From contig NZ_CP123872.1 in NCBI RefSeq assembly GCF_031598375.1, positions 1,965,001-2,029,000 of the forward strand: DNA of 64,000 nt. The letters are read 5' to 3'. The translations under genes and the position numbers were made by a program. The stretch is from Temperatibacter marinus (lineage in GTDB: Bacteria; Pseudomonadota; Alphaproteobacteria; Sphingomonadales; Kordiimonadaceae). Within the stretch, counting starts at the first letter, position 1; every line of letters starts with the position of its first letter. A model generated the notes under the pieces. That model searched no databases. It saw nothing but the letters and a program-made list of their open reading frames with translations, and was not told where the DNA came from. Of the stretch, positions 7,708 through 62,471 are shown in pieces.

Positions 7708-8622
7708 CTAAGCCCTTGGATGCGCGTTATCATAAATATCTTTGAGGCGGGCTGCGTCTATGTCGGCATAGACTTGTGTCGCCTTGAGGTCTGTATGGCC
7801 GAGTAATTCTTGTATGGTTCTTAAATCACCACCGGCAGAGAGAAGGTGGGTAGCAAAACTATGTCTCAGGGCGTGCGGCGTTGCTGTGGCTGGTAGCCCA
7901 AGTGCCGCTCTCACTGATTGCATTGCTTTTTGAATAATACGAGGATTGCATCGCTTTCCTCTCGCTGAATAAAAAAGAGGAGATTCTTTTGAAATTATAT
8001 AGGGGCATAAATTTTTATATCGATCCAGTGCATCATGAATGATTGGCAGAAGAGGAATAAGACGTTCTTTATCTCGCTTGCCTTTTATCATGATTGAAGT
8101 GGCACGGGATTGTATATCCCTGCCATTTAATTGAAGCGCTTCACTAATCCGAAGGCCACACCCGTATAAAAGGATAAGGACTGCAGTATCTCTTGCACCC
8201 TGCCAATCGTCTTTAGCAAAATCGCCTATGGTATCAATGACAGTCTCACTATCTGCTTCGGTGAGCGGTCGGGGTAAGCTTGTTGTAACTTTTGGGGCTA
8301 TGACGGCACTGATAGAGTCATTCTTGAGATGATGGACACGCGAGCAATATCTATAGAAATTTCGAATTGAAGAGAGGCGGCGAGATACAGACTTAGGGCC
8401 TTTACCAGTCCGTCTTTCCTCAGCCAGGAAGGCTCTGAAATCTCTGACATGGAGGCTTTCCAAAAGTCGGGGCGTGATGTCTTGACCTTTATAATCTCTT
8501 AAAAAGGCAATGAAAAACCCTAGATCACGTGAATAGGCTTGAACACTATGGTGAGATAGCCTTTTTTCCGTTTCGAGATAAAGGCGCCATTGATGAATGA
8601 TCTTGTCTAAAGAAAGGGTCAT
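7708..8622 (-). CDS. xerC: tyrosine recombinase XerC
   Basis: Site-specific tyrosine recombinase, 304 aa, which acts with XerD at dif to resolve chromosome dimers. An N-terminal SAM-like core-binding domain (residues 1-100) is followed by the catalytic domain with Arg158 (CGLRISEAL), Lys182, His250/Arg253 (HALRHSFATHLL), His276 (LLGHTDLKATQVYAD) and nucleophile Tyr285. The C-terminal HPRA is typical of alphaproteobacterial Xer proteins. It overlaps coq9 by 4 bp. XerC rather than XerD is inferred from the coq9/housekeeping context and overall resemblance; the two paralogues are hard to separate by eye. There are no flanking repeats or integrase cargo, so it is not a mobile-element integrase. 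Confidence 0.88.
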   Translation of the reverse strand: MTLSLDKIIHQWRLYLETEKRLSHHSVQAYSRDLGFFIAFLRDYKGQDITPRLLESLHVRDFRAFLAEERRTGKGPKSVSRRLSSIRNFYRYCSRVHHLKNDSISAVIAPKVTTSLPRPLTEADSETVIDTIGDFAKDDWQGARDTAVLILLYGCGLRISEALQLNGRDIQSRATSIMIKGKRDKERLIPLLPIIHDALDRYKNLCPYIISKESPLFYSARGKRCNPRIIQKAMQSVRAALGLPATATPHALRHSFATHLLSAGGDLRTIQELLGHTDLKATQVYADIDAARLKDIYDNAHPRA

Positions 8623-9275
8623 GAAGCGTTAGGGTACCTCAAGCGTCCAAAGAATTTAGAGAGGGACGGCATGTTTTTTGTGACCTCTTTAATTTGAAAC
8701 TTAGTTGTTTCAATTTTCATGACATCTTCTATCCGTCGATCGAGAAATTCCCAAGTCCCGTCATTATTCTCGGTTTCATCGTTAAGCCAATAGGTTAGGA
8801 CGGCTGAATAGACAGCCGATAAAGTCATTCGTTTTGTATACCAATTATGGTCTGTGCTTGTATCGCCAATAGCTCTCCACATAAGATCAGACGTATCCCA
8901 TAAAGCTTTCATCCCAATCGGTGCATATTGGGGGAGCGCTAAAAGAGCCACGCCTTTGCGGACAATATCTTTATCAGCGTGTGCACCTTGCAGGCGTAAC
9001 TTAATAGCCTGTGTAATTTTATCTCTGATTTTCATCTCGTTTAAAGGGAGAGCCTGGATGGCGACTAGAAGTTGCTCATCGGCTTGTTTCAGATGGTCTT
9101 GAAGGACCTCAATAGGCCCTTGTGGATAGGCAAGCTCAGCTATTTCAGGACTAATCCCAAGGTCATCAGCGGCTAAGGACATGGTTTTTTTTGTCCAACC
9201 ATCAAATGCTACATGGGGGAGCATGGCCTCTAAAAGTTTAGGGCGTATTTCAAGCGGTGTCTCATCATTAGTCAT
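8619..9275 (-). CDS. coq9: COQ9 family ubiquinone biosynthesis protein
   Basis: A 218-aa protein of the COQ9 family, a TetR-like-fold lipid-binding accessory factor that supports the hydroxylation steps of ubiquinone synthesis. The C-terminal half has the family pattern (ALWDTSDLMWRAIGDTSTDHNWYTKRMTLSAVYSAVLTYWL, here split around residues 124-165), and the N-terminal third (AMLPHVAFDGWTKKTM) resembles the start of TetR-like folds. It is first in a tight minus-strand run with xerC. Presence of COQ9 is typical of Alphaproteobacteria and mitochondria. Start is an ATG with AGAAGG ten bases upstream. Confidence 0.9.
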   Translation of the reverse strand: MTNDETPLEIRPKLLEAMLPHVAFDGWTKKTMSLAADDLGISPEIAELAYPQGPIEVLQDHLKQADEQLLVAIQALPLNEMKIRDKITQAIKLRLQGAHADKDIVRKGVALLALPQYAPIGMKALWDTSDLMWRAIGDTSTDHNWYTKRMTLSAVYSAVLTYWLNDETENNDGTWEFLDRRIEDVMKIETTKFQIKEVTKNMPSLSKFFGRLRYPNAS

Positions 9276-48086: not shown

Positions 48087-48701
48087 ATGTCTGAAGATGA
48101 GCCGATAGGTGAAGCTGAACTAGTCGAAGGACTGGAAAAGAAGAATTTCAGCGGAAAGAAACTTGTTATTATAGGAGGGGCTGTTGTTGTCCTTCTGCTC
48201 ATTGTTTTTGTTGTGATGTCTTTAATGGGCGACGATGATGAGAAGCCTCAAGAGACTGAAGCTGATCGACTGGATAAGCAAGCCCAAGAAACAATTCAAG
48301 CACGCGAAGAGCCTCAAATACAAGAAGTTATTGGTGAATTCAATGTGCCTCTAAGATTGCCGAGTGATAGTGATAATCCCGCAGCCTCAAATGCGGTGGA
48401 CGGGGATGGTGATATTACTGTTCAATTGAACACAGGTGATTCTTCTCAGGCCTACTTGAGTGTCAATGTCACCTTACTTGTGGACCGGGAGCGGTTTAAA
48501 ACACAAATCGAAGAGCAGAAATCTGCCCTCATCATTAGTGAGTTTATTACCTACTTAAGTGAACTCAGATTAGAAGATGTGGAAGGAAGTCGCGGAAAAG
48601 AACGTCTTAAAGAAGAGCTCCTGTCTCGAATTAATCAATCCCTTGCCCCGATAAGAGTGAAAGATGTGTACTTCACTAAATTCCTTGTGAGTGCGGGTTA
48701 G
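48087..48701 (+). CDS. fliL: flagellar basal body-associated protein FliL
   Basis: A 204-aa single-pass inner-membrane protein associated with the stator. Short acidic cytoplasmic N-terminus, a membrane helix (about residues 31-50), an acidic linker, and a periplasmic stomatin-like domain (about 120-204) with FLxxLR-like ITYLSELRLEDVEGSRGKERLKEELLSRIN and the C-terminal VKDVYFTKFLVSAG. It is the first gene of the operon leading to fliM. Confidence 0.92.
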   Translation: MSEDEPIGEAELVEGLEKKNFSGKKLVIIGGAVVVLLLIVFVVMSLMGDDDEKPQETEADRLDKQAQETIQAREEPQIQEVIGEFNVPLRLPSDSDNPAASNAVDGDGDITVQLNTGDSSQAYLSVNVTLLVDRERFKTQIEEQKSALIISEFITYLSELRLEDVEGSRGKERLKEELLSRINQSLAPIRVKDVYFTKFLVSAG

Positions 48702-48741
48702 TTGCAAGAGGGTTGTAGTTGTTTAAAGGACGATACCAAGA

Positions 48742-49890
48742 ATGATCGATGATGACGAAAATGTAGATGATGATGCGTTAGCCGCCGAATGGGAAGCCAT
48801 GGCTGGGGACGACGAGGATGAAGATGTCGATCAGGATGCTATGGCTGCCGAATGGGAAGCTATGGCAGGTGATGATGGCGACACCGGCGGTGGTGAAGGG
48901 GAAGAAGACGATGATGGTAGTACGCCAGGCCGGGTTCTTGATCAGACAGAAATTGACAGCCTTCTTGGATTTGATGGGGACGATGGTTCAGGAGAAACCA
49001 CAGGCATTCATGCCCTAATCAATAGTGCACTTGTCTCTTATGAGAGACTGCCGATGATGGATATTATTTTCGATCGTATGGTCAGAATGATGTCAACCTC
49101 CCTAAGAAATTTTACATCAGATAATATCGAAGTTTCCCTCGACAATATTACCAGTGTTCGTTTTGGTGATTATCTAAACTCCATACCACTGCCGGCAATG
49201 CTTTCGGTTTTCCGCGCAGAAGAATGGGATAATTATGGCCTGATGACAATTGACTCGAGTTTAATCTACTCGATCGTTGATGTGCTTCTAGGCGGGCGCC
49301 GCGGTACAGCTGCTATGCGGATTGAAGGGCGTCCTTATACGACCATTGAACAGACACTGGTTGAGCGTATGGTTTCAGTTGTTTTGAAAGATATGTGTAG
49401 TGCCTTTGAGCCTCTCTCAAAAGTGAATTTTGTCTTTGACCGTCTAGAGACCAATCCACGCTTTGCAACCATTGCACGCCCGCCTAACGCCGCTGTACTC
49501 ATTAAATTGAGAGTGGATATGGAAGATCGAGGCGGTCGGCTTGAAATCCTTTTCCCTTATGCGACTTTAGAGCCTATTCGTGAACTTCTCTTACAGCGGT
49601 TTATGGGGGAAAAGTTTGGCCGAGATTCAATTTGGGAAAGTCATTTGGCTACTGAATTGTGGAAAGCTAATGTGGAATTGAATGCCATTATGGACGAAGA
49701 GACTATGTCTCTGAAGGATGTTATGGATCTCCAGATAGGACAAACGTTGGTGTTCAATAAAACGCCCAATGATGAGGTGGTTATCAAATGCGGCGATGTT
49801 CCAATGTTCAGTGGGTCCATCGGACGGGCGGGTAAGCATGTTGCAATCCAAGTACGCCGGGCTGCAGAAAGACTAGCAACAAAAGAGTAA
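48742..49890 (+). CDS. fliM: flagellar motor switch protein FliM with N-terminal acidic repeats
   Basis: A 382-aa C-ring switch protein. The CheY-binding EIDSLLGF motif is at about residues 70-77, preceded by an acidic extension with a duplicated 15-residue element (DDALAAEWEAMAGDD at 10-24; QDAMAAEWEAMAGDD at 31-45). The CheC-like middle domain follows (about 100-290), then the C-terminal SpoA/FliN-like domain (about 300-380, VMDLQIGQTLVFNK). Known FliM proteins have EIDxLL at the very N-terminus, so the 70-residue extension is notable. AAAGGA precedes the ATG. Confidence 0.94.
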   Translation: MIDDDENVDDDALAAEWEAMAGDDEDEDVDQDAMAAEWEAMAGDDGDTGGGEGEEDDDGSTPGRVLDQTEIDSLLGFDGDDGSGETTGIHALINSALVSYERLPMMDIIFDRMVRMMSTSLRNFTSDNIEVSLDNITSVRFGDYLNSIPLPAMLSVFRAEEWDNYGLMTIDSSLIYSIVDVLLGGRRGTAAMRIEGRPYTTIEQTLVERMVSVVLKDMCSAFEPLSKVNFVFDRLETNPRFATIARPPNAAVLIKLRVDMEDRGGRLEILFPYATLEPIRELLLQRFMGEKFGRDSIWESHLATELWKANVELNAIMDEETMSLKDVMDLQIGQTLVFNKTPNDEVVIKCGDVPMFSGSIGRAGKHVAIQVRRAAERLATKE

Positions 49891-49969
49891 ACCGGTTATA
49901 GTATTGATGAATTTGAGAAATTTGTTAATTTTTCGGTAACCCTAGTTTGTTAGTATAGGAATAGAGAGT

Positions 49970-50425
49970 ATGACTCCGCTTTTGGCTTTGGTGATTGATG
50001 GTGTTCTAGCTGTGCTGCTTATTGCGGCAATTGGTGCTTGCATGGTCGTCTACAAGAAATTGAACGCGATCCGAAGCGGACAGGATGAGATGAAGGCGAT
50101 TGTTCAAGAGCTGAATACGGCTGTCATAGAAGCGCAGCGCAGCGTAGGGCAATTGAAACATACAGCCGTTGAGGTTGAAGAGCAGCTTCAGACACAGGTT
50201 AAAAAGGCCAAAGTGTTATCTGATGAGCTGCTTTTAATCACAGAGGCTGGTAATAATTTGGCCGATCGGATTGAGCAACGATTGACGAAGGAATCTGGAA
50301 AAGGCTCTGATCCGCTGCATACAGTCAGTGAAAAGAGCGAGGCAGATTTATTTGGAAGTCAGCCTAAGAAAAAAGTGAAGTCAGAACAAAAACAATTGCT
50401 AGAAGCTCTAAAAGAAGCGCGCTAG
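49970..50425 (+). CDS. DUF6468 flagellar-locus membrane protein
   Basis: A 151-aa protein with one N-terminal membrane helix (about residues 5-28) followed by a coiled coil (about 35-105) and a lysine-rich tail. This arrangement matches the DUF6468 family, found between fliM and motE in alphaproteobacterial flagellar clusters. Function is unknown; position suggests a stator- or switch-associated role. Starts after AGGAATAGAG. Confidence 0.75.
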   Translation: MTPLLALVIDGVLAVLLIAAIGACMVVYKKLNAIRSGQDEMKAIVQELNTAVIEAQRSVGQLKHTAVEVEEQLQTQVKKAKVLSDELLLITEAGNNLADRIEQRLTKESGKGSDPLHTVSEKSEADLFGSQPKKKVKSEQKQLLEALKEAR

Positions 50426-50467
50426 CCAAAAAGAATTAAACAAGTCTGGATTGGACGAGAGGATAAA

Positions 50468-51133
50468 ATGATGCTGAGTAACGTTAAGCTGTTTCCGACG
50501 TTAATAATTGTATCCCTAATTGCTTTGGTATTGAAGGTTTCAAGTGTATGGACTGGTGTTGAGCTCATGAATGCTCCAGTGGTCGCACAAGAAAATCAGG
50601 AAGAAGATAAGCCTGAGAAAAAAGACGATAAGCCTGCTGCTGACAAAAAAGATGATAATCAACCCGCTGATTTGGATGATATCGTGAATGGGGATGATCT
50701 GTCTTCGACAGAGGAAGATAACATTCTCCAGAAGTTGCGCCAACGAAGCGCTCAGATCGATCAGCGAGAACGTTCAATTGACCTGAAAGAAAAGCTTCTG
50801 TTGAAAGTTGAGCAAGACATTGATTTTAAGATTAAAGATCTTGAACGTATTCGTGGAGAGATCAAAATTCTTCTGGGCGAGTTTGAAAAGCATGAGAAGG
50901 ACAAGTTGAATAAATTGGTAGCTATGTATTCTAATATGAATCCCAAAAGAGCTGCGCCAATTTTTGTTGAGCTTAAGCAAAAGGATTTAGCAACGCTGCT
51001 GAAAGTCGCGAGCAACATGCCCGAGAAGAAATTTTCAAAAATTCTTGAGTTGATGCCTGCATTGCAAGCTTCAGAGCTGACGACAAGCATGGCTGAAATG
51101 GCGAAGCCAGATGCCTCAATTGCATTGCAATAA
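50468..51133 (+). CDS. motE: MotE-family protein (MgtE_N-like)
   Basis: A 221-aa protein with an N-terminal membrane/signal segment (about residues 9-30), an acidic Lys/Asp/Glu-rich linker (about 40-75), a coiled coil (about 85-145) and a C-terminal MgtE_N/FliG-like helical domain (about 150-205, YSNMNPKRAAPIFVELKQKDLATLLKVASNMP in parts). Domain order fits MotE, a periplasmic chaperone for MotC in Rhizobia. In this gene order a partner role with the downstream MotB-like proteins is an inference. Confidence 0.83.
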   Translation: MMLSNVKLFPTLIIVSLIALVLKVSSVWTGVELMNAPVVAQENQEEDKPEKKDDKPAADKKDDNQPADLDDIVNGDDLSSTEEDNILQKLRQRSAQIDQRERSIDLKEKLLLKVEQDIDFKIKDLERIRGEIKILLGEFEKHEKDKLNKLVAMYSNMNPKRAAPIFVELKQKDLATLLKVASNMPEKKFSKILELMPALQASELTTSMAEMAKPDASIALQ

Positions 51134-51158
51134 GTGAGAGTAGGGGCGGGAGTAATAT

Positions 51159-51800
51159 ATGACGGATTCAGTGGTTGATCTTGATGATCGAATTTCAGCA
51201 GTAAAAGAACAATATGGGGAAGAAATTCCTATTGATACTGTTGGGGAAGTCGTTTCTTCACTCGTTTCAGGAACATCTCAAGCCGGCGATATACAGCATA
51301 TTGCAGGTGAGTTGAAGGAGCTCTTAGATTTCATTACCGCGGCTCGCGATGAGTTAGGGTCTATGCGACCTAAGTCTTTATCGGCTGTCGATATTCCCCG
51401 AGCTGCTGATGAACTGTCTGCTGTTGTGGAAAATACAGAAGCTGCTGCTGGGACTGTTATGGACGCTGCTGATACGCTGTCTGAAATTGCCTTTTCAATG
51501 GAGGGAGACCAGGCGGACACTCTAATGAAGCTGTCTACCGATTTGTTTGAGGCAAGTAGTTTTCAGGACATCACCGGCCAGCGTATTAACAAAGTTGCTT
51601 CAACACTTGACCATCTTGAAGATAAATTAATCGCCCTTGCAGAGGCAATCGGGGATGATTACGTGGAAACAGTAGAAGAAGAAGTCTTTGACGAGGGCGG
51701 AGATGTTGTAAATGATGAAGCCCTTCTTCATGGACCACAACTTGATGGAGAAGGTAATTCTCAAGCGGATATTGATGCATTGCTTGCGAGTTTTGATTAA
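51159..51800 (+). CDS. cheZ: protein phosphatase CheZ
   Basis: A 213-aa helical phosphatase of CheY-P. The catalytic motif FQDITGQR gives Asp137 and Gln141 with the CheZ spacing, and the C-terminal QADIDALLASFD is the CheY-binding helix. A long helical hairpin (about residues 45-165) precedes it. GGGAG is placed 6 bases before the ATG. Its location inside the flagellar operon rather than with cheA/cheY is common in Alphaproteobacteria that have CheZ. Confidence 0.92.
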   Translation: MTDSVVDLDDRISAVKEQYGEEIPIDTVGEVVSSLVSGTSQAGDIQHIAGELKELLDFITAARDELGSMRPKSLSAVDIPRAADELSAVVENTEAAAGTVMDAADTLSEIAFSMEGDQADTLMKLSTDLFEASSFQDITGQRINKVASTLDHLEDKLIALAEAIGDDYVETVEEEVFDEGGDVVNDEALLHGPQLDGEGNSQADIDALLASFD

Positions 51801-51850
51801 TCACGCACAGCATGGAATTTTGAATATCTTTTTGAAGGCCGATTAGTCCT

Positions 51851-52579
51851 ATGAAAGAGTTGATGTCACATTCAAATAGAAACATTTCCTCTGAAGAGTC
51901 TGGCGGTAATTCTACGCTGGGCATGTTTTTAGCTCTTTACTTAATTCTATTGGGTTTTTTCATTGTTCTGACGGCTTTGTCAGAGCCTTCTACCAATAAA
52001 TCTTCTGAAGTGATGAAAAGCGTTAATTCTAGCTTTAAAGAGCTCGCCACGGAAACGTCTGGCGAAAAGGTGGCTCAGAATGACTTTCCCGCAGCTCGGG
52101 ACGATAATTTTCTTAGAGCAGTTAATGAACGTTTGAAATCATCCCTGAACATCGAAGGACGTTTTGGTTCAGAAGGTGGAAATGTCCTGCGTGTAGCAAT
52201 CGATGCTGATCAGCTTTTTGCTCGGGGTTCTCTAATTTTGAACAGAGAAAAACAGGCGATTATACAAGATATTCTTGAACCCTTTGAAGCGGCAACACGG
52301 GGATCTAAAGAATTATTCATTCTATACGGCATTGGTACAGGAATTCTGAGTGCAGATGAAACGAGGCCCGATCAATTCGCGGTCATGCGGTCAGAGTCTC
52401 TGAGAAAAACAATTGAGCAAACTCACGGCGGAAAATTAAAATTCACATCAGGATTAGTTAAAGAGAAGAGTAATACTATCTTTTTCGTTTTTCGGCATAA
52501 ACAGCCAGTGAGCCTGAGGCTTTCTGCTCTCTCTGGTTCGGTAATTGAGATTGAGGGGAATACTCATGACTCAGAATGA
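51851..52579 (+). CDS. MotB-like membrane protein lacking the proton-channel aspartate
   Basis: A 242-aa protein with a MotB-like N-terminus: a short cytoplasmic tail, one membrane helix (about residues 25-44, FLALYLILLGFFIVLTALS) and a periplasmic OmpA-like region (about 95-225, with QLFARGSLILNREKQAIIQDIL). The helix has no aspartate at the position where MotB carries its proton-binding Asp, and peptidoglycan-binding residues are poorly conserved. Its 3' end overlaps the next MotB-like gene by 14 bp. It may be a structural or regulatory partner rather than a stator itself. The start could instead be the in-frame ATG at 51863. Confidence 0.7.
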   Translation: MKELMSHSNRNISSEESGGNSTLGMFLALYLILLGFFIVLTALSEPSTNKSSEVMKSVNSSFKELATETSGEKVAQNDFPAARDDNFLRAVNERLKSSLNIEGRFGSEGGNVLRVAIDADQLFARGSLILNREKQAIIQDILEPFEAATRGSKELFILYGIGTGILSADETRPDQFAVMRSESLRKTIEQTHGGKLKFTSGLVKEKSNTIFFVFRHKQPVSLRLSALSGSVIEIEGNTHDSE

Positions 52580-53246
52580 GGAAGATCCTTATGAGAACTC
52601 AGAGGGTTCAGCCTGGACGGTGACCTTTGTTGACCTCATGTCTCTTATGTTGACCTTCTTTGTCCTGCTCTTCTCAATGAATACTGTTCAAAGCGCAGGC
52701 TGGGAGAGTCTTGTGGACTCAATGAAGCAGCAGTTCAGTGTTAAAGAATCTGCGGTTCAAGTCGAAGATGATAGTCGTAAGTCAGCTGTTTCTGAGATCC
52801 GCGGTAAAAATGTTAGGTATTTAGCAACACTCTTTGAAAATAGTTTGAAGGATGATCCTTTGTTTAGGGGCGGATCTTTTGATCTCGTAAACAATCAATT
52901 GGTGATGACAATCCCTGCGGAAAATATTTTTCTTCAATCCGATCATCTTATTTCACCAGACCAAGCGAAGAAATTTATTGAGTTGGGCATAAAATTGGCG
53001 CAATTGCCAAATAACATTATAATTAATGGTATAAGTCCTCAGGATGCTCAATTTCTGGAGCCTTATAGAAACCCAAGTGAAAAGGCAATTGCAATGGCGA
53101 GGTCTGTTGCTGCTGTTTTCGATAATAGAGGGGTTAAAGGGGCGATGACCATAATTGGCCGAGAAGAAAGATCTGGATCGAAAGAGCGGATTGAAATTAA
53201 AGTTCTGGACGAAGGTGTGAAGCGAGGTATTTATGAAATACTTTAA
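52566..53246 (+). CDS. MotB-like protein with channel aspartate
   Basis: A 226-aa protein. The membrane segment (about residues 17-40) reads WTVTFVDLMSLMLTFFVLLFSM, whose Asp corresponds to the MotB proton-binding residue in ADFMTLLMxFFxxM. The periplasmic part is short and OmpA-like (ENIFLQSDHLISPDQAKKFIELG). I start at ATG 52566 (GAGGGG upstream). It overlaps the genes on both sides by 14 bp each. The motA partner is not in this window. MotB family is well supported by the helix; whether it forms the stator is inferred. Confidence 0.75.
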   Translation: MTQNEEDPYENSEGSAWTVTFVDLMSLMLTFFVLLFSMNTVQSAGWESLVDSMKQQFSVKESAVQVEDDSRKSAVSEIRGKNVRYLATLFENSLKDDPLFRGGSFDLVNNQLVMTIPAENIFLQSDHLISPDQAKKFIELGIKLAQLPNNIIINGISPQDAQFLEPYRNPSEKAIAMARSVAAVFDNRGVKGAMTIIGREERSGSKERIEIKVLDEGVKRGIYEIL

Positions 53247-56200
53247 CAAAGTATCAGGCGTAGGACGCATGTCTTACACTGTTAAATCAACAGTAGTTGC
53301 TGCCCTTTTGATGACAGCGCTACCTGCCCTTGCAGGCAGTGCCACTTCAGCAAATTCTGCGGTTACTGCCTCTCAAGCACAGGCTCAGGTCCCTGTTAGA
53401 GGGAGTGAGCAAAATGGCTTCACGCGGTTGATTTTTGATTTTCCAGTCGAAGTTCCTTTTCAAGTTGTTAAGACAGGTACAACGCTCGAAGTTATCTTTG
53501 AGGCCTCTTTTCAGCCTGCCTTTACGGGTGCTGTACAGTCTGGCATGACGAATTTTACGGCTCCATCATCTGTTGGCACAACGACAACAACGACAGTCCG
53601 TTTCACAGTGAATGCTGAGGCATACCCTAGACAATATCGTCGGGGAACGTCTGTGTATTTAGATATATATCCTGTGACGCCAGCTTTTGTGAGAGATCGT
53701 ACCCGTCGTATGCGAGAGAGGCTGGCTCAGGGAACTGTGCGTCCACAAGTCACGAGCCCTACACCGGCACAAACATCCAGTTCAAGGCCTGCATCTACGC
53801 CAGATACAGCTGAAGCTCGCACCGCGGCTACGCCAGAAGAGTCTAATGCAGCTACAACGCAAGGTGCGCCGGCTACGAGCGGGGCTACACCAGAAAATCG
53901 TACAGAAAATCAATCAACGTCAGATGCTAATGTGCCTCCTGTAGGGGATGAGCCCCCTTCAGCCGCCGCGGCCGTAAAAAAACCTGATGAAGAGATAATC
54001 CAGAAAGAAAAACCAAAGCAAGATCGTGATTTAAGCAACCTTGTTTCGACGACTGAATTAAAACCTAAAGACGATAAGAAGCCTCAGGACGACAAGAAAA
54101 AAGAAGCTCTGGAAGGACCTGAATATACGCAAGGCGAATCTAAAGCTGTGACGGATGGCCAGGATATGGATGTCCAACTGACTGTCACGAAAAAGTCTAA
54201 AGGGGTTATCTTTGAAACCAATGATGGCATAGCGGGTAGCGGCGGTACATTGTCAGTGGATGTGAATAGTCTGCCTGATTTGTCAGGCGTTTCTTTCATA
54301 TTCAATATGCCAGGAATTGTTCCAGCAGCTGCTTTTGAGCGCTATGGTAATCTTTGGATTGTCTTTGATGGTAAAATGAATATTGATGACCGCGGGATGC
54401 TTGAAGCCAAGAAAATTCTTGAGGGGCGCGTGCAAGGGGTTTATCCCGTTGAGCATAAAGACGCAACCATCTTACGCATGGCGATCACGGCAAACCAAAA
54501 TATTGTCATGGAAGTTATTGAAGATCGATGGGTTCTACAACTTAAAGATACGCCGACACGGCCACGCTTCCCTCTTTTACCTCAGCGTAGAAACGATACG
54601 CTGAATGGCAATCATATCTTTGTTGAAGCCAATCAAATTGGAAATAAGCTTACCTTTGAAGACCCAACAATTGGGGATGAAGTGGTTGTTTTACCTCTTT
54701 TAGGTATGGGAAGAGGTCTTTCTTCTAAGAGGGATTATGCTGAAGCTATCTTGATGAAAACCGCTCAAGGCATTGCAATTGAACCCTTATCAGACAAAGT
54801 TATTATCAACCGTTTTAGAACAGGCGTTGCCATTAAAACCGAGGTCTTGTCAAAAGTTGGAGAGATGTCTGCAATTTTAGCGCAAAAACTAGTTGATTTT
54901 GATGCTTGGCGCATAGGCTCGACAAGAGATTATAAGAAAAACCGTGCACGACTTATGTTGAAGCTCTCTCTTGCAGAGCGGAAACAGAGAAATAAATATA
55001 GATGGGACCTAGCTCGGTTCTACTTAGCACATAACCGTCCGACGGAATCTCTTGGTTTGTTAGGATTGATGGTTGAAGACGATCCCACAATTGAACGTAA
55101 AGGGGACTTCCTTGCTGTAAGAGGTATTGCAAATTACCGAATGGGGCGCATGGCTGAATCTGGAGCAGATCTCTTTAAGACAACCTTGAATGGTGAGCAG
55201 GATATCGAGCTTTGGCGGGCGAAAATTAAAGAAAGCCGCGGGGCTTTTAAGGACACACTGGACCATTACAGACGTGGTAAAGATGTGATTGGAGGCTATG
55301 TGCCTGCCGACCGTGCCTCTATTCAACTGGCCGTGATACGTGCGGCTCTTGCTGAAGAAAATTTCCGTATGGCCCAGCAGGAACTTGATCTCTTTCAGGA
55401 AATGAAAACGGATAACCTTCGAGAGCGTCAAGTGACAGAAGGCAAATATCTTAGAGGAAAACTTGCAGAAGCACAGGGGCGTCAGTCTGAGGCTCTTGGG
55501 TATTTTGATGAAGTTTCTTCGTCACTTGATCGAAGATTATCTGCATATGCTCGATTTAGTAGAGTGATGCATAATCTAAAGATGAAGGATATTTCGGATG
55601 ATGAAGCTATTGCAGAACTCGAACGATTGTCATTCGCCTGGAGAGGGCCAAAGTTTGAAGGGTTAGTGAAGTCTAAACTCGTTGAACTTTATGAACAGAA
55701 AAAGCATTATAACATGGCTTTTGATGCCTTAAAATATGGAACAATTTATTTTCGTTCTGAAGCAACAAAACATCGCTTTCCTGAGCGCATGCGTAATCTC
55801 TTTAAGCGTCTATTCTTGAATGGTGAGGCGAACAGTCTCCCTGCTAGTCGCGCAGTAGCTATGTTCTTCCAATATCAAGAACATAACCCAAAGGGGCCCG
55901 ATGGTGACCGTATTGTTATTAATCTTGTGGACCGCCTTGAGCAGATGGATCTGCTGGACGATGCGGCTAATCTTTATCTACACTTAATTACAACGCGAGT
56001 TGAAACTCAGTCTGCGAAGGCCAGTTTAGCGGCTGATTTAGCCCGTGTTTATATCTTAGATAAGAAACCTGAGAAGTCTTTAGACATTATTCGCGCAACG
56101 AAGCAAATGGGCCTGCCTGAGGATATTATTGACAAAAGACGCTGGGTTGAAGCCAAGGCCTTGATTGAACTAGGTCGCTATGAAGAAGCGGAAGTTCATC

Positions 56201-56604
56201 TTGAAGATGATGGGTCTTCTATGGCTAAAGAGTTAAGAGCAGACCTTTACTGGGGAGCACAGGATTATGAACAGGTTGTTACATCTACCCGAGTGCTGTT
56301 AGGAGATAGCTGGCGTCGTAACGAAATGCTTGATTCGAAAAGCCGCCTGTTCCTTATTCGATCTTGTATTGCCATGGCATTTAATCGAGATCGTGAAGGA
56401 TTAAAAGAAATGCGAGATCGCTATGGCCTTCAGATGCGTGTAGGTGACTTGAATACTGCTTTTGAGCTATTGACGAATCAAGAGGATCTTTCTGGTGGAG
56501 AGCTCAACAGTATTGTGGAACAGATTGCAAGTATCAATAAACTGCGTACATTCATGCGTGATTATAATAAAGATTTCTCTGATAAATCTGCACAATCTCA
56601 ATAA
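53233..56604 (+). CDS. large periplasmic AMIN-like/TPR protein of the flagellar locus
   Basis: A 1123-aa protein with a signal peptide (about residues 18-35), an N-terminal AMIN-like beta domain (about 50-145, with a second related region around 330-450), a Pro/Ala/Thr/Lys-rich disordered linker (about 155-300), and a long helical repeat region (about 590-1110) of TPR type (for instance RPTESLGLLGLMVEDDP and IELGRYEEAEVHLEDDG). It overlaps the MotB-like gene by 14 bp, with GAGGT placed correctly, so co-translation is likely. Role unknown; a periplasmic scaffold linking peptidoglycan and flagellar stator is an inference from domain types and position. Confidence 0.72.
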   Translation: MKYFNKVSGVGRMSYTVKSTVVAALLMTALPALAGSATSANSAVTASQAQAQVPVRGSEQNGFTRLIFDFPVEVPFQVVKTGTTLEVIFEASFQPAFTGAVQSGMTNFTAPSSVGTTTTTTVRFTVNAEAYPRQYRRGTSVYLDIYPVTPAFVRDRTRRMRERLAQGTVRPQVTSPTPAQTSSSRPASTPDTAEARTAATPEESNAATTQGAPATSGATPENRTENQSTSDANVPPVGDEPPSAAAAVKKPDEEIIQKEKPKQDRDLSNLVSTTELKPKDDKKPQDDKKKEALEGPEYTQGESKAVTDGQDMDVQLTVTKKSKGVIFETNDGIAGSGGTLSVDVNSLPDLSGVSFIFNMPGIVPAAAFERYGNLWIVFDGKMNIDDRGMLEAKKILEGRVQGVYPVEHKDATILRMAITANQNIVMEVIEDRWVLQLKDTPTRPRFPLLPQRRNDTLNGNHIFVEANQIGNKLTFEDPTIGDEVVVLPLLGMGRGLSSKRDYAEAILMKTAQGIAIEPLSDKVIINRFRTGVAIKTEVLSKVGEMSAILAQKLVDFDAWRIGSTRDYKKNRARLMLKLSLAERKQRNKYRWDLARFYLAHNRPTESLGLLGLMVEDDPTIERKGDFLAVRGIANYRMGRMAESGADLFKTTLNGEQDIELWRAKIKESRGAFKDTLDHYRRGKDVIGGYVPADRASIQLAVIRAALAEENFRMAQQELDLFQEMKTDNLRERQVTEGKYLRGKLAEAQGRQSEALGYFDEVSSSLDRRLSAYARFSRVMHNLKMKDISDDEAIAELERLSFAWRGPKFEGLVKSKLVELYEQKKHYNMAFDALKYGTIYFRSEATKHRFPERMRNLFKRLFLNGEANSLPASRAVAMFFQYQEHNPKGPDGDRIVINLVDRLEQMDLLDDAANLYLHLITTRVETQSAKASLAADLARVYILDKKPEKSLDIIRATKQMGLPEDIIDKRRWVEAKALIELGRYEEAEVHLEDDGSSMAKELRADLYWGAQDYEQVVTSTRVLLGDSWRRNEMLDSKSRLFLIRSCIAMAFNRDREGLKEMRDRYGLQMRVGDLNTAFELLTNQEDLSGGELNSIVEQIASINKLRTFMRDYNKDFSDKSAQSQ

Positions 56605-56731
56605 TTTGCAGCCTGCGAAATTTTAAAAACCATATATTTATTATATAGATAGTCATGTCTACATTTCCTTCACAAAAAGGTGATGAGGATATGATTATCT
56701 TTTTTGCGAAGCCTGGGCCATGATCAGGGTG

Positions 56732-56754
56732 TTGAAACAAACCAACCAATTTGG
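56732..56754. promoter_or_regulatory. possible promoter/operator of the bufferin operon
   Basis: A TTGAAA element (56732-56737) precedes the dyad CCAA-T-TTGG (56746-56754). A -10-like GTTAAA or TTAAAC follows at about 56755. This is the only regulatory-looking sequence in the 180-base gap after the TPR gene; it is weak evidence. Confidence 0.3.
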
Positions 56755-56784
56755 GTTAAACAATAATTGCATATGGAGGACATC

Positions 56785-57075
56785 ATGCAAAACACACTTA
56801 AAAAAGCAGTAGTTGCAACAGGTGCGATGGCATTGGCTCTTTCAATGGCGACAGCGACAGCATCAGCTTCATCGTCTAACGTTATCGAAAAAGGCAAAGG
56901 CAAGAAAGTAAAGTGCTACGGTGTAGCAGCGAAAGGCAAGAATGATTGCCAAACAAAAAATCACTCATGCGCAGGTGAAGCAAAAGCTGACAACGCTGCG
57001 GACGAGTGGGTATATATGCCAATGAATCTTTGCAAGAAACTTGCGAAAAGCAGTGTAGGTAAGCCTCGTAGCTAA
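56785..57075 (+). CDS. bufA: DUF2282 precursor peptide, bufferin 1-type RiPP
   Basis: A 96-aa secreted precursor of the DUF2282 family. An N-terminal signal peptide (about residues 1-29, cleavage after ASA) precedes a short core region with four cysteines at 44, 55, 62 and 83: [17 protein letters not shown] and the final C. This four-Cys pattern is the hallmark of type 1 bufferins, in which central cysteines are modified by the MNIO enzyme and the product binds copper. The true start is the ATG at 56785 (TGGAGGAC upstream), not the earlier in-frame ATGs. The MNIO, DUF2063 and DoxX genes follow. Modification and metal binding in this organism are inferred from family. Confidence 0.88.
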
Positions 57076-57097
57076 TCCTTATCAAGGTAAGAATTAT

Positions 57098-57131
57098 GCG
57101 TTCAGGGTTTTCACTCTGAGCGCCTTTTTTT
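57098..57131 (+). terminator. intrinsic terminator between the bufferin precursor and its maturation genes
   Basis: A 10-bp stem (57098-57107 with 57114-57123, two G-T pairs), loop TTTTCA, followed by CTTTTTTTA. It lies between bufA and bufB and probably sets a high precursor-to-enzyme ratio by partial readthrough. Confidence 0.9.
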
Positions 57132-57141
57132 AGGAATTTTT

Positions 57142-57999
57142 ATGCACAAGCGTCACTCAGATCTTCCCCTTGGAGTAAGTTTAAAATCTGATCATTACGA
57201 TGCGATTATTTCAGCAATGCCAAGTTTGGACTTTTTTGAAATCCATGCTGAAAATTATATGATGCCTGCCGGGCCTCATATTCGTGCGCTTCAAACTATT
57301 CGTGAGCACTATGATATATCAGTTCATGGCGTTGGCTTATCACTTGGAAGTGCTGAAGGACTAGACAAAGATCATCTGCGGCGTTTCAAGCATCTTGTTG
57401 AATGGATAAACCCCTGCCTGGTTTCTGATCATCTCTCATGGTCCGTAAGTCATGGGGCCTATTTAAATGACCTTCTTCCCTTACCATTGAATGAAGAATG
57501 TCTTGAGGTCGTCTGTAGAAACATCTCAGAGGTTCAAGATGTCCTTGGCAGGCAGTTACTTGTTGAAAATCCTTCAAGCTATTTGTCCTATACGCACTCA
57601 AATATGGGCGAAGCTGAATTTCTCAATGAAATGGCACACAAGACAGGTTGCGGTCTTTTGCTGGACATTAATAATATTTATGTTTCAGCAACAAACTTGG
57701 AGTATTGTGCCAAAACCTTCCTTCGGGAGATCAATCTGGGTGCAGTAAAAGAAATTCACCTTGCAGGGCATGCAACAAAAATTATCGACGGACGCACACT
57801 ATTGATAGACGATCATGGGTCTCGCGTCGCTGATGAGGTCTGGAGTTTGTACAAATATGCTCTCGAGGGTGGCATTGGCGGTGCGACGCTCATTGAATGG
57901 GATAGTAATTTACCTGATTTTTCAGTCTTTATGGAAGAAGCAGATAAAGCGGCCGCGCTTATAAATGTGCCTCCCTCTCAGCGCGAGGCCTTATTATGA
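57142..57999 (+). CDS. bufB: DUF692 multinuclear non-heme iron oxidase (MNIO), bufferin maturase
   Basis: A 285-aa TIM-barrel enzyme of the MNIO (DUF692) family, which modifies cysteines in precursor peptides. Candidate iron ligands lie in the usual segments: EIHAEN (Glu33, His35, Glu37), VHGVGLS (His62), SDHLSW (His97), VENPSSY (Glu142), DINNIY (Asp175), HLAGH (His206, His210), DDHG (His225) and EWDSNLP (Glu252, Asp254). GVSLKxDHY near residue 11 is a further family block. Followed by bufC with a 4-bp ATGA overlap. Confidence 0.94.
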   Translation: MHKRHSDLPLGVSLKSDHYDAIISAMPSLDFFEIHAENYMMPAGPHIRALQTIREHYDISVHGVGLSLGSAEGLDKDHLRRFKHLVEWINPCLVSDHLSWSVSHGAYLNDLLPLPLNEECLEVVCRNISEVQDVLGRQLLVENPSSYLSYTHSNMGEAEFLNEMAHKTGCGLLLDINNIYVSATNLEYCAKTFLREINLGAVKEIHLAGHATKIIDGRTLLIDDHGSRVADEVWSLYKYALEGGIGGATLIEWDSNLPDFSVFMEEADKAAALINVPPSQREALL

Positions 58000-58796
58000 C
58001 AGATGAATTTCGCTCTCCCTATGACTTGGCAAGTCTGCAAAAGGATTTCACAAAAAGGCTTTCTAATCCTTCCTGTGAAGAAAGTGACATTGAAGATTAT
58101 ATACAAGGGGGACTTTTTGAGCCTTCGGAACGTCTTCAGATCCATCAGAATAACGTACACCTTTCTCTGGTTGATACAATTGTATCCAGTTTTCCAGTGA
58201 CTTCTTCTATGACGGGGGATGATTTTATTAGAGCTGTCGCACGGGAGTTCGTGAAAACTGAATTACCATCAGCACCAATGTTATCTGCCTACGCACCGCG
58301 CTTTGCTGACTTTTGGCTTGGCTTTGATAAGGCACAAGACTATCCCTTTATAGCAGATATGCTGAGGGCCGAAGCTGCGATAGATTATGTACAGGAAATG
58401 CCTGAATCAATCCCAATATCCCCAGTTGAATGGCAAAAATTATCACAATCAAAAATATTGTTGGAAAATAATTCCTTAAAAATTACAAAATCTAAAATTG
58501 CTTTTTGTAGTCGATGGCCTATTATAGACATGTGGCTTGCAGCAACGGGCCAACTTGATTTTGATGGGATTGAAATGGCAGATAATCCGCAGAATATCCT
58601 TGTGATCAATGTGGAAGGAGATGTGTTTCTGCATTCCTTAAGCCAATCTGAATATGATTTTTTGTCCTATAAGGGTGAAGAGAATGGGGTCGAGCAACGC
58701 TGTGAAATATATCTTAAAAACGCTGAAGAATTTGGAAAAGATTCTTTAGGGTCGGTGATGGCATCACTTTTTGAAAAGGGTATATTTATATACTAA
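57996..58796 (+). CDS. bufC: DUF2063 protein, bufferin maturation partner
   Basis: A 266-aa protein of the DUF2063 family. The N-terminal domain has the family pattern (LQIHQNNVHLSLVDTIVSSFPV, LPSAPMLSAYAPRFADFW) that binds the MNIO and presents the precursor. The C-terminal half is a variable alpha/beta domain (about residues 135-266). The ATGA overlap with bufB implies coupled translation and a complex. It lacks catalytic motifs. Confidence 0.9.
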   Translation: MTDEFRSPYDLASLQKDFTKRLSNPSCEESDIEDYIQGGLFEPSERLQIHQNNVHLSLVDTIVSSFPVTSSMTGDDFIRAVAREFVKTELPSAPMLSAYAPRFADFWLGFDKAQDYPFIADMLRAEAAIDYVQEMPESIPISPVEWQKLSQSKILLENNSLKITKSKIAFCSRWPIIDMWLAATGQLDFDGIEMADNPQNILVINVEGDVFLHSLSQSEYDFLSYKGEENGVEQRCEIYLKNAEEFGKDSLGSVMASLFEKGIFIY

Positions 58797-58825
58797 GACC
58801 TCAGGGTCGATAAAAGGATTATAAT

Positions 58826-59275
58826 ATGGTTGAATTCTATAACTCGCTTGTTAGGAAATTAGAGTCCCTTCCTGCACCTGATATAAATCTCATTGCACGG
58901 CTTTGGATCGCTTATATTTTTTGGAAATCAGGCAGAACTAAAGTCGATGAAGGTTTCCTGGAGCCATCTGAGACTACATATCTGCTTTTTGAAAATGAAT
59001 ATGCGCTTCCTCTTCTGCCATACGATCTTGCAGCCCATATGGCCATATATGCAGAAACTTTTTTACCCCTATTGTTGATTGCGGGCTTCATGACAAGGGT
59101 CAGTGCGACCATGTTGCTGGGCATGACAGCAGTCATCCAGATATTTGTTTATCCAACAAGTTGGCCGGACCATTTGATGTGGGCTGTTGTACTTGTATTC
59201 CTTGTATTACGAGGCGGTGGGGCTATCTCACTGGATAGAATAACCATAGAAAAGAAAACAGTTAAGGCTGTTTAA
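58826..59275 (+). CDS. DoxX family membrane protein of the bufferin operon
   Basis: A 149-aa protein with four hydrophobic helices (about residues 18-38, 70-93, 95-112 and 118-137) and a DoxX-like pattern (RLWIAYIFWKSGRTKVDEGF, LLPYDLAAHMAIYAETFLPLLLIAGFMTR, in parts). DoxX genes are regular members of DUF692-DUF2063 operons. Function is unknown; redox or quinone-linked support of the maturation is only suggested for such proteins. It starts 29 bp after bufC. Confidence 0.85.
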   Translation: MVEFYNSLVRKLESLPAPDINLIARLWIAYIFWKSGRTKVDEGFLEPSETTYLLFENEYALPLLPYDLAAHMAIYAETFLPLLLIAGFMTRVSATMLLGMTAVIQIFVYPTSWPDHLMWAVVLVFLVLRGGGAISLDRITIEKKTVKAV

Positions 59276-59298
59276 TCGACGGATCGAGAGGTATTGTA

Positions 59299-59790
59299 AT
59301 GGACGATATAGATCGCAAAATTTTAGCACTCTTACAAGAAGATGCAACCCTATCTACAGCTGAAATTGCTGAAAAAGTAGGACTTTCTACGACGCCCTGC
59401 TGGCGCCGGATTCAATCCTTAGAGTCTGAGGGGTTTATTACCAAACGTGTAGCAATTGTTGATCGTGAGAAAGTAAATGTCCCACTTGATGTGTTTATTG
59501 CCATTAAAACAAACCAACATAATATCGATTGGTTTGGGAAATTTTCCAAGGCTATAGATGAGTATGATGAGGTTGTAGAATTTTATCGTATGAGCGGCGA
59601 GGTTGATTATCTCATGCGTGTTGTCGTGCCCGATATGGCGGCTTTTGATACTTTTTACAAACGATTAATATCTAGTGTCGAGCTCTCTGATGTGAATAGT
59701 AGTTTCGCTATGGAACGGATTAAATATACCACAGCTGTTCCGCTAGACTATATGATGGATTCCCCAACACCGAGACGTCGGAGACGATAA
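59299..59790 (+). CDS. Lrp/AsnC family transcriptional regulator
   Basis: A 163-aa Lrp/AsnC regulator with N-terminal helix-turn-helix (STAEIAEKVGLSTTPCWRRI, about residues 19-38) and a RAM domain (about 65-140, FYRMSGEVDYLMRV). The TTPCWRRI recognition helix is the commoner Lrp type, unlike the first Lrp gene in this window. It has an unusual arginine-rich C-terminus (PTPRRRRR). It begins 23 bp after the DoxX gene and 2 bp before pepN, so it may be co-transcribed with either. Control of the bufferin operon is possible, not shown. Confidence 0.92.
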   Translation: MDDIDRKILALLQEDATLSTAEIAEKVGLSTTPCWRRIQSLESEGFITKRVAIVDREKVNVPLDVFIAIKTNQHNIDWFGKFSKAIDEYDEVVEFYRMSGEVDYLMRVVVPDMAAFDTFYKRLISSVELSDVNSSFAMERIKYTTAVPLDYMMDSPTPRRRRR

Positions 59791-59792
59791 GC

Positions 59793-62471
59793 ATGAAATT
59801 TGATGTGATTGATACCCAGCCTAAAGAAATACTTTTGGCTGATTATGCCGCCTATCCTTTTGCCATTGATACAATTGCTCTGACTTTTAAGCTCTCTCCA
59901 GCAGAGACAATAGTTACGTCTAAACTGTCGTGTAGAAGATTAGGACAGGCTTCGACCGTCCTCGAGCTTAACGGCGGGCCTTATATGTCTCTTCTCTCTC
60001 TTCACATGGACGGTGTGCTTTTAGAGGCAGAAAAAGACTATGACCTTTCTGAAGAGCATTTGCGGGTTTATAATGCGCCTAAGTCATTCGAACTCACTGT
60101 TGTCACCTCCATTAACCCTCAAGAAAATACACGCCTGGAAGGTCTATATCTTTCCAGTGGTAATTTTTGTACCCAGTGTGAAGCTGAAGGCTTCAGACAT
60201 ATTACTTATTATCCAGATCGACCAGATGTGCTGTCAGTTTTTTCTGTTCGTATTGAAGCCTTAATGGAAGACTATCCGGTCTTGCTCTCTAATGGCAATC
60301 CTGCGGGTGCAGGTGAGATTGCGGGTGGATATCACTATGCCATATGGAATGATCCGCATCCAAAGCCAGCCTATCTTTTTGCACTTGTTGCTGGCAACCT
60401 GGCCTGCTTGACAGATAAGTTTCACACTTCTTTAGGGCGGGATGTAACCCTCAATATTTATACTCTTGAGAAGGATCAAGCTAAATGTGATTATGCTATG
60501 GGTGCACTAAAACGGTCCATGCAATGGGATGAAGAAACATACGGACTGGCTTATGATCTTGATGTTTATAATATCGTTGCAGTTTCGGACTTCAATATGG
60601 GAGCGATGGAAAATAAAGGCTTGAATGTCTTTAATACGAAATATGTCTTAGCGAGTCCAGACACTGAAACAGACACTGATTTTGCACATGTTGAAGGTGT
60701 GATAGGACACGAGTATTTCCATAATTGGACAGGTAACCGCGTGACATGCCGCGACTGGTTTCAATTAAGTTTGAAAGAGGGGCTAACGGTGTACCGTGAT
60801 CAAGAATTTTCCAGTGATATGGGGTCACGTGTGATTAAGAGGATTGATGATGTAAAGGCTTTGCGCGCCGCTCAGTTCCCCGAAGATGCAGGACCATTTG
60901 CACACCCAGTCAGACCTGAAAAATACATTGAAATCAATAACTTTTATACAGCGACTGTTTATAATAAAGGGGCTGAAGTTATTCGAATGATGGCAACCAT
61001 TATTGGCCAGGCTGCTTTTAGAAAAGGTATGGACTTATACTTTGAAAGACATGATGGCTCTGCAGTTACCTGTGAAGATTTTGTTCAAGCAATGGAAGAT
61101 GCCTCAGGCTTTGACTTGAGGCAGTTTAGATTATGGTATTCTCAGGCAGGGACCCCAGAAATTAAAGTTGATGTAAAAAAAGGGCAAGGCAGTAAAACTA
61201 TTCTTTCCGTGTCGCAGACTGTTCCTTCTACCCCTGGTCAGGATATGAAAAAACCTATGGTAATTCCTATTGTCATGGGATTTGCTACGGAGCATGGAGA
61301 TTGCTTAAGTGCGCAGGGCCTAAGCTCTAATATCCGACCTCTCGGGAATGGCAGCTTTTTACTAATGATGACCCAAGGGGCTGATGAATTTACTTTTGAA
61401 GGGGTTGAGCCTACAGCTGTACCAAGCCTGTTGAGAGGCTTCTCTGCTCCTGTGGAGATGGAAACCACACTGTCAGAATTACAGCAATATTTTATACTGA
61501 ATTTTGATACCGATTCCTTCAACCGCGTTGAAATGAGCGACCTGCTTCTGAAAAAAGAAGTTTATAAAATTGCGGAGCAAATTGAAGCGTCACAAACGAA
61601 GACAGTTTCCAACAAATTAATCAAAAGCCTTGGACAATGTCTGGAAGCTTATGAACGTGATCCTGCTTTGATATCGTCGATACTTTCTATGCCCAGCGAG
61701 AATGATTGTATCAGTTCCATGAAGCGATTAAGTATTGATGCTGTTTTTGAGGCGCGTCAGTTCTTAGGAAAAAAGATTGCCCATCGATTGAGAAAGTCAC
61801 TTCAATCTGTTTATTTATCTTCGCGCAGTGCCGCTAAAAGTCTGTCCTTGAAGGGGGATAAACAAGCTGTTCATTTTAGACGTCTTCAAAATGTCTGTTT
61901 ATCATATATGGCGAAAACTGGGGGACATGCTGAGAATAGATTGATTGTGGACCAGTTTCAGGACAGTACCACTATGACGAATAAATTGGCTGCGCTTCAA
62001 GCATTGGTTCATAGTTCAATTGGCAAGCGTAAACAGCTTATTCGCCATTTTTATAAGGCCTATCGAAAAGATGAACTGGTTGTTGATAAATGGTTTGCTG
62101 CGCAGGCTCTTTCAACACATGAGAATGTTCATTCTGAGATTGCTCTTCTGCAAAATCATAGAGACTTTTCCTATACAAACCCCAACAGAATACGCTCCTT
62201 AATTGGGATGTTTACCATGGGGAACTTAAGTGCATTTCACCGACGATGCGGCAAGGGGTACGAAATTTTGGCAAATGCAATCTTGAAATTAGATGATATT
62301 AATCCTCAAGTTGCAGCTCGTATGTTAACGCCGCTTGGCCGCTATCATAAGTTGGATAAAGAGCGGCAAGTCTTGATTGGCAAGCAGTTGAAACGGATTT
62401 TAGCAAAAGAGGGGCTTAGTAAGCCGGTGTATGAAATGGCAAGCAAGGCCTATGAGGGGTTGAAAAAATAA
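59793..62471 (+). CDS. pepN: aminopeptidase N (M1 family)
   Basis: An 892-aa zinc aminopeptidase of the E. coli PepN type, releasing N-terminal residues from peptides in the cytoplasm. The exopeptidase motif GAMEN lies at 270-274, the zinc site HEYFHNWTGNR at 306-316 (His306, Glu307, His310) and Glu329 in KEGLTVYRDQEF. N-terminal beta domain (about residues 1-195), catalytic domain (about 196-445), DUF3458 Ig-like domain (about 450-555) and C-terminal helical domain follow in order. Starts 2 bp after the Lrp-type gene. The size is as expected. Confidence 0.96.
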   Translation: MKFDVIDTQPKEILLADYAAYPFAIDTIALTFKLSPAETIVTSKLSCRRLGQASTVLELNGGPYMSLLSLHMDGVLLEAEKDYDLSEEHLRVYNAPKSFELTVVTSINPQENTRLEGLYLSSGNFCTQCEAEGFRHITYYPDRPDVLSVFSVRIEALMEDYPVLLSNGNPAGAGEIAGGYHYAIWNDPHPKPAYLFALVAGNLACLTDKFHTSLGRDVTLNIYTLEKDQAKCDYAMGALKRSMQWDEETYGLAYDLDVYNIVAVSDFNMGAMENKGLNVFNTKYVLASPDTETDTDFAHVEGVIGHEYFHNWTGNRVTCRDWFQLSLKEGLTVYRDQEFSSDMGSRVIKRIDDVKALRAAQFPEDAGPFAHPVRPEKYIEINNFYTATVYNKGAEVIRMMATIIGQAAFRKGMDLYFERHDGSAVTCEDFVQAMEDASGFDLRQFRLWYSQAGTPEIKVDVKKGQGSKTILSVSQTVPSTPGQDMKKPMVIPIVMGFATEHGDCLSAQGLSSNIRPLGNGSFLLMMTQGADEFTFEGVEPTAVPSLLRGFSAPVEMETTLSELQQYFILNFDTDSFNRVEMSDLLLKKEVYKIAEQIEASQTKTVSNKLIKSLGQCLEAYERDPALISSILSMPSENDCISSMKRLSIDAVFEARQFLGKKIAHRLRKSLQSVYLSSRSAAKSLSLKGDKQAVHFRRLQNVCLSYMAKTGGHAENRLIVDQFQDSTTMTNKLAALQALVHSSIGKRKQLIRHFYKAYRKDELVVDKWFAAQALSTHENVHSEIALLQNHRDFSYTNPNRIRSLIGMFTMGNLSAFHRRCGKGYEILANAILKLDDINPQVAARMLTPLGRYHKLDKERQVLIGKQLKRILAKEGLSKPVYEMASKAYEGLKK

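Follow-up and report, generated by a model that had tools for sequence, protein, structure and literature searches.

Buf1 bufferins, for which captophorins is another name (PMC13097082), are described in the available sections of PMC12452194 and PMC13097082 as copper-binding peptides with 5-thiooxazoles on the two central Cys residues and a disulphide between the outer pair. Among the closest described systems is the Caulobacter crescentus cluster CC3254-CC3257, an operon kind governed there by SigF/NrsF (PMC3511200, in part). Here we describe a bufferin operon, bufA-bufB-bufC-doxX, followed by a gene for an Lrp/AsnC regulator (lrp) and by pepN, in a stretch of 64,000 nucleotides (nt) from Temperatibacter marinus (contig NZ_CP123872.1, positions 1,965,001 to 2,029,000; called the window below). 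What is new here is a conserved TCAC-N6-GTGA dyad upstream of bufA; the operon itself is of the known Buf1 type. Taken as a whole, the locus is likely to be a Buf1 operon under a trans-acting regulator that reads this dyad and is shared with gshA in relatives, with Lrp as a bystander.

The window locus shares with CC3254-CC3257 its four core genes and their order, a four-Cys precursor and an MNIO scoring over the BufB cut-off (parts of PMC3511200). Unlike the Caulobacter cluster, it has a dyad instead of TGTAAC, an internal terminator and lrp-pepN downstream, and there is no NrsF in its genome; both organisms belong to the same class. Among the papers listed, no literature match joined bufferin or DUF692/DUF2282 with Lrp, gshA or Kordiimonas. 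The main text of PMC12452194, as available, contains none of the terms Lrp, AsnC, terminator, promoter, operator, palindrom or Kordiimonas, and the available part of PMC13097082 none of Lrp, promoter, operator or glutathione. The latter paper does state, with reference to a supplementary table, that transcriptional regulators are frequent companions of MNIO clusters, so that an entry for Lrp there is possible.

The predicted operator (56667-56702, + strand), absent from an earlier note on this DNA, was recognised by conservation and a position weight matrix (PWM) and consists of a TTCACAAAAAGGTGA dyad followed by TATGATTATC. Its half-sites are TCAC (56670-56673) and GTGA (56680-56683), and bufA starts 115 nt downstream. 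A possible -10 element of bufA, CATGAT (56719-56724, + strand), was placed by eye from the position of the operator and from TAATAT-like elements in relatives; an operator lying upstream of the likely promoter would suggest an activator. Relatives for the family and same-order comparisons came from a set of 59 genomes; in the named collection, the relatives that share the gene order are Kordiimonas and Kordiimonadales records. TCAC-N6-GTGA stands upstream of bufA in 27/27 family buf loci (26 relatives and the window), followed in most by an AT-rich box. A PWM trained on the 26 relatives, with the window held out, gave the window site a score of 21.2, rank 1 of 27,930 positions in 14 kb. This site is also the only match without mismatch to TCAC-N6-GTGA-N6-TATNAT in the genome; with up to two mismatches the same pattern gave 64 matches, against 63 for the reversed pattern. 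A first family pattern returned 24 matches in 22 of the 59 genomes, of which bufA accounted for 21 and gshA for 3, and none when reversed. Beyond the family, five of the 15 same-order buf loci that have no linked lrp carry TCAC-N5-8-GTGA: in L062, L065, L066 and L070 a dyad of spacing 7 or 8 is accompanied by a box-like sequence, whereas L075 has a plain dyad. L069 and L071 each have a PWM match that ranks first in the locus.

One family genome (G007, rated 100% complete) has no MNIO. Its locus (L076) keeps the flanking genes, with a homologue of the gene upstream of bufA directly before lrp, and a dyad scoring 20.3 lies between the two; at gshA this genome has no dyad. A loss of buf with the operator left behind is the probable history of this arrangement.

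The first dyad matches beyond bufA, in genomes G008, G011 and G023, lay upstream of gshA, the gene for glutamate-cysteine ligase (PF04107). A dyad like that at bufA stands in strict form at 18/27 family gshA loci (200 nt upstream examined; 0.014 expected per locus), and the window genome has the strict form at bufA but only a variant at gshA. All 18 genomes with a strict gshA dyad carry buf. The bufA-trained PWM had its best match of the whole locus within those 200 nt in 21 of the 27 loci, while 300 column-permuted PWMs gave a mean of 1.43 and a maximum of 7. Genomes G025 and G028 are not among the 27, their gshA matches being partial and yielding no locus. A final pattern, composed after both kinds of site were known and with its matches assigned by coordinates, gave 39 matches in the 29 family genomes at up to one mismatch (21 at bufA, 11 at gshA, 7 elsewhere; none in the window genome) and 10 when reversed. 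Around two of the seven matches elsewhere (G008 and G002), whose surroundings were listed, no regulator was recognised. With this dyad standing before gshA too in Kordiimonadaceae, the production of bufferin and of glutathione probably shares its control in that family, as a response to thiol/copper stress.

NrsF (PF06532) was not found in the window genome, the Caulobacter control being positive, so the known SigF/NrsF circuit is missing; the SigF-type element TGTAAC was also absent, by eye, from the 180 nt that separate bufA from the gene before it. The earlier note had spoken against an extracytoplasmic function (ECF) sigma circuit and for a possible link to amino acids through Lrp; the remark on the ECF circuit was partly right, in that NrsF is missing. 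At class level, 90 loci, part of the matches in 111 genomes, were surveyed, and 83 were usable (six had no Cys motif and one too little upstream sequence). TCAC-N6/7-GTGA occurs at 18 of the 83, in the 420 nt that precede the first Cys region, with about 1.3 expected from a background taken downstream of bufA; several of the 18 are far upstream or boxless, so real operators would be fewer. With NrsF linkage assigned from a list compiled by hand, dyads were found at 1/18 NrsF-linked loci versus 17/65 others, and TGTAAC-N16-19-CG at 8/18 versus 7/65. A second Buf1 regulatory class in Alphaproteobacteria is slightly more likely than not; it would replace SigF/NrsF and consist of TCAC-N6/7-GTGA with an AT-rich box, read by a trans-acting redox or copper sensor that would include gshA among its targets in Kordiimonadaceae. 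At one locus (L073, G055) the buf cluster is accompanied by a divergent ECF sigma factor gene and a zf-HC2 gene, with GTAAC elements and no dyad upstream of bufA.

Several observations weigh against a shared dyad regulator. The window site itself has diverged: it misses two family consensus patterns (at 2 and 1 mismatches), and the window genome gave no match in either scan. Its gshA has only a symmetric variant, TAACTAATTCGTTA, with both half-sites altered alike. The family genomes are related, so their counts are not independent. Among the 9 family gshA loci lacking a strict dyad, 7, including that of the window genome, come from genomes that have the bufA dyad, the other two (G007 and G027) having no MNIO. 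Across 14 other same-order gshA regions, a dyad with a box was present only in G051, G045 and G050 having a plain dyad and G035 and G041 none. Two loci with a linked lrp (the f2 and f7 loci L061 and L064) have no clear dyad. At class level 65 of the 83 loci have none, spacing outside the family varies from 6 to 8, and the expected count rests on that downstream background. No regulator gene was recognised beside 9 dyad-bearing loci outside the family, where neighbours were judged by eye and only an Asp/Glu racemase and a protoglobin were run against Pfam; bufA was located in two of the nine, and the other seven were relisted, with bufA still not visible in some. A longer N7 pattern gave 36 matches against 6 reversed in ten genomes at up to three mismatches (3 known bufA sites and 33 others), so more targets may exist. 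Finally, the reader of the dyad may be a paralogue of the Lrp/AsnC family.

The nature of the dyad's reader admits two other explanations. The site could be the bufA operator of a general copper or redox regulator (MerR/CueR, OmpR-type, or OxyR/LsrB-type LysR) with a larger regulon whose other sites are too degenerate to be seen. A dyad near the promoter with an AT-rich box downstream would suit such an activator, and the 33 matches of the longer pattern beyond known bufA sites fit a larger regulon. Sinorhizobium meliloti LsrB, which senses redox state and directly activates gshA (PMC6315971, in part), offers a precedent for trans-acting redox control of this gene in an alphaproteobacterium. 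However, the scan of 29 family genomes shows little past bufA and gshA, and we regard a general regulator as possible but rather unlikely. LsrB/VtlR itself was rejected as the reader of the dyad, because the box published for it, GCAT-N3-TG-N3-T (PMC7486931, in part), is unlike the dyad; no link of LsrB to bufferin was found among the papers listed. The second alternative is that the adjacent Lrp binds the bufA dyad and couples bufferin to amino-acid status, a link that the earlier note had suggested. Its attraction lies in the adjacency: MNIO is present in 27/29 family genomes, the window genome included, and each of these 27 has its best Lrp orthologue immediately after buf, as do one f2 and one f7 genome. 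The single perfect match at bufA in the window genome would also be expected of a local regulator, and in the buf-less G007 the retained dyad lies 333 nt upstream of lrp. Against this, the operator and an Lrp orthologue do not go together as they should in an Lrp-regulated operon. Dyads occur at buf loci without a linked lrp, including G035 (rated 100% complete), which has dyad and box although its best Lrp match is at E 3e-20 and thus no close orthologue; the f2 and f7 loci show the converse. The gap before lrp holds no TCAC-N6-GTGA in the window or in 26 relatives, the second conserved target, gshA, is far from lrp, and the helix-turn-helix (HTH) of Lrp is near-invariant across 15 orthologues, some of them from buf-less genomes. 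A terminator of at most -12 kcal/mol precedes lrp in 14/26 family relatives. Moreover, lrp stays with pepN where buf is missing: the pair is kept in G007 and G034, neither of which has an MNIO match (buf-less loci L076 and L078). Among buf-bearing family relatives pepN adjoins lrp in 25/26 (one cut by a contig end; exception L038), and pepN is a steadier partner of lrp than buf. None of the 75 Lrp orthologues outside the group (62-69% identity to the window Lrp), among the best 80 loci, had a buf or pepN match in its flanks, which covered at most 8 kb and were in some cases cut short by contig ends. Lrp was rejected as the leading candidate for the buf regulator on these grounds. Its neighbourhood suggests that it is probably a conserved neighbour pairing with pepN rather than the regulator of buf, and the amino-acid link is very improbable. 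A CopR-like role as a metal sensor was rejected too: Pyrococcus CopR is a copper regulator of the Lrp/AsnC family but bears a metal-sensing TRASH domain (PMC7830388, in part), whereas Pfam shows no metal-sensing domain in the window Lrp, whose only Cys lies within the HTH.

A further alternative concerns the hairpin between bufA and bufB. The intrinsic terminator that the earlier note had placed between precursor and enzymes is present in the sequence as a candidate at 57098-57124 (+ strand; -16.6 kcal/mol, T7 tail). It is one of 11 candidates at or below -12 kcal/mol on the + strand of the window; a looser scan of 56000-60600 gave 8 terminator-like sites versus 3.1 in shuffles, the stem at 57098-57124 being the longest and most GC-rich. 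Only 17 nt separate its end from the bufB start, which leaves scant room for a promoter of bufB's own. Could such a hairpin be conserved in bufferin operons and work there as a switch that sets stoichiometry? Besides the strong terminator here, one same-order relative of 28 has a comparable one (L045, G014; -27.6 kcal/mol), in unrelated letters. The other 27 lack a hairpin of similar strength: under the criterion applied to the window, 25 have none, and those of L036 (-8.8 kcal/mol) and L061 (-6.4 kcal/mol) are weak. The conserved terminator was rejected on these counts; a general switch is improbable, if slightly less so than regulation by Lrp, and the terminator would be a feature at the level of the species. 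The earlier suggestion that the hairpin sets stoichiometry is therefore plausible, but for the window species only. Microcin C, itself a ribosomally made modified peptide, offers the precedent on which this plausibility rests: a terminator likewise separates its peptide-precursor gene from the first enzyme gene (mccA-mccB; PMC6495379, in part). In contrast to that case, the terminator here was found in the window species and in one of the 28 relatives.

The genome (3.18 Mb, a single contig) has one MNIO match and one DUF2282 match. Its buf region runs on the + strand throughout, from a gene for a protein of 1123 amino acids (aa) through a 180-bp gap to bufA, the terminator, bufB, bufC, doxX, lrp and pepN, and by family matches and gene order it classes as a standard Buf1 cluster, which bears out the bufferin-type operon of the earlier note. 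Pfam, NCBIfam and the coordinates also confirmed the parts then listed: a four-Cys DUF2282 precursor, an MNIO, a DUF2063 partner joined by an ATGA overlap, DoxX, and Lrp 23 bp further on. The precursor gene bufA (56785-57075; 96 aa) matches PF10048 (E 7.9e-18; 64.6 bits, cut-off 22.4); its four-Cys pattern is kept across relatives, and NCBIfam Cu_RiPP_BufA2 scored 37 bits, under its cut-off of 60. The N terminus of BufA looks signal-like by eye only (basic start, hydrophobic core, AxA). The MNIO/DUF692 maturase gene bufB (57142-57999) matches PF05114 (334 bits) and NF050167 MNIO_BufB (363 bits, cut-off 310). Solved relatives of BufB by sequence include PDB 3bww, 8hci and MbnB, and an alignment of 39 BufB proteins has 30 polar, charged, aromatic or Cys positions with a conservation of 95% or more. 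The gene for the DUF2063, PME-type 1 partner, bufC (57996-58796), matches PF09836 (E 1.5e-15; 57.6 bits, cut-off 27.2) and falls under the cut-off of NF050145 HvfC; a sequence search for solved BufC relatives found none. The membrane protein gene doxX (58826-59275; PF07681, E 1.8e-16; 60.9 bits, cut-off 23.6), the usual fourth gene of bufferin clusters, is present in 25/26 buf-bearing family relatives. Next comes lrp (59299-59790), with an AsnC-type HTH and an AsnC ligand domain (PF13412, PF13404, PF01037). The doxX-lrp gap is 79-166 nt in relatives, and in L052, where no doxX was matched, lrp lies 268 nt from bufC; the window gap of 23 nt holds no terminator, so that transcription from buf may extend into lrp-pepN in this species. 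The pepN-like M1 aminopeptidase gene (59793-62471; Peptidase_M1, PF01433, E 1e-55) begins 2 bp after lrp, where the range of the earlier note had ended. An Rfam search of 56000-60000 gave no structured RNA at gathering score.

The 1123-aa protein gene (53233-56604, + strand), which had zero Pfam matches, ends a flagellar/chemotaxis block and marks the chromosomal position: a homologue lies upstream of buf in 25/26 family relatives at a gap of at most 1405 nt, the remaining locus being at a contig end. The block itself (48087-56604), with FliL, FliM, DUF6468, CheZ and MotB-plug domains, is immediately upstream of buf, and its last genes hold the same position across the family. Variations on the cluster were seen elsewhere. 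In L053 (G021) bufA is doubled in tandem ahead of a single bufB, and L035 (G003) and L046 (G014) are second, divergent bufferin clusters of the NDCAAGPGTSCAG type, with neither a linked lrp nor a dyad. A DUF2282 gene with a Lys/Glu-rich C-terminal tail lies near a contig end in L080 (4392-4751), and its genome, G047, has no match to MNIO. In L062 (G035) the next gene after the buf cluster encodes an EF-hand protein (7805-8281), and in L286 (G257) the gene immediately before bufA, on its strand, encodes a protoglobin (8637-9176).

Under the shared-regulator reading, the promoter upstream of bufA would be controlled by a dimeric trans-acting regulator bound to the conserved dyad. In this species the terminator after bufA would yield extra precursor transcript, with bufBC-doxX, and probably lrp-pepN, reached by read-through. 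By analogy with the family, BufB and BufC would convert the two central Cys of BufA to 5-thiooxazoles before its export through Sec, the mature peptide would chelate copper in the envelope, and DoxX would help in some way. In this case the adjacency of lrp, although the family conserves it, says little about regulation. A conserved operator at NrsF-less loci, common to gshA in one family, would open a direct way to find out how other bacteria sense that bufferin is needed. If this reading is true, a periplasmic copper-chelating ribosomally synthesised and post-translationally modified peptide and cytosolic glutathione would form one thiol-copper regulon, and envelope copper buffering and cytosolic glutathione are predicted to switch together.

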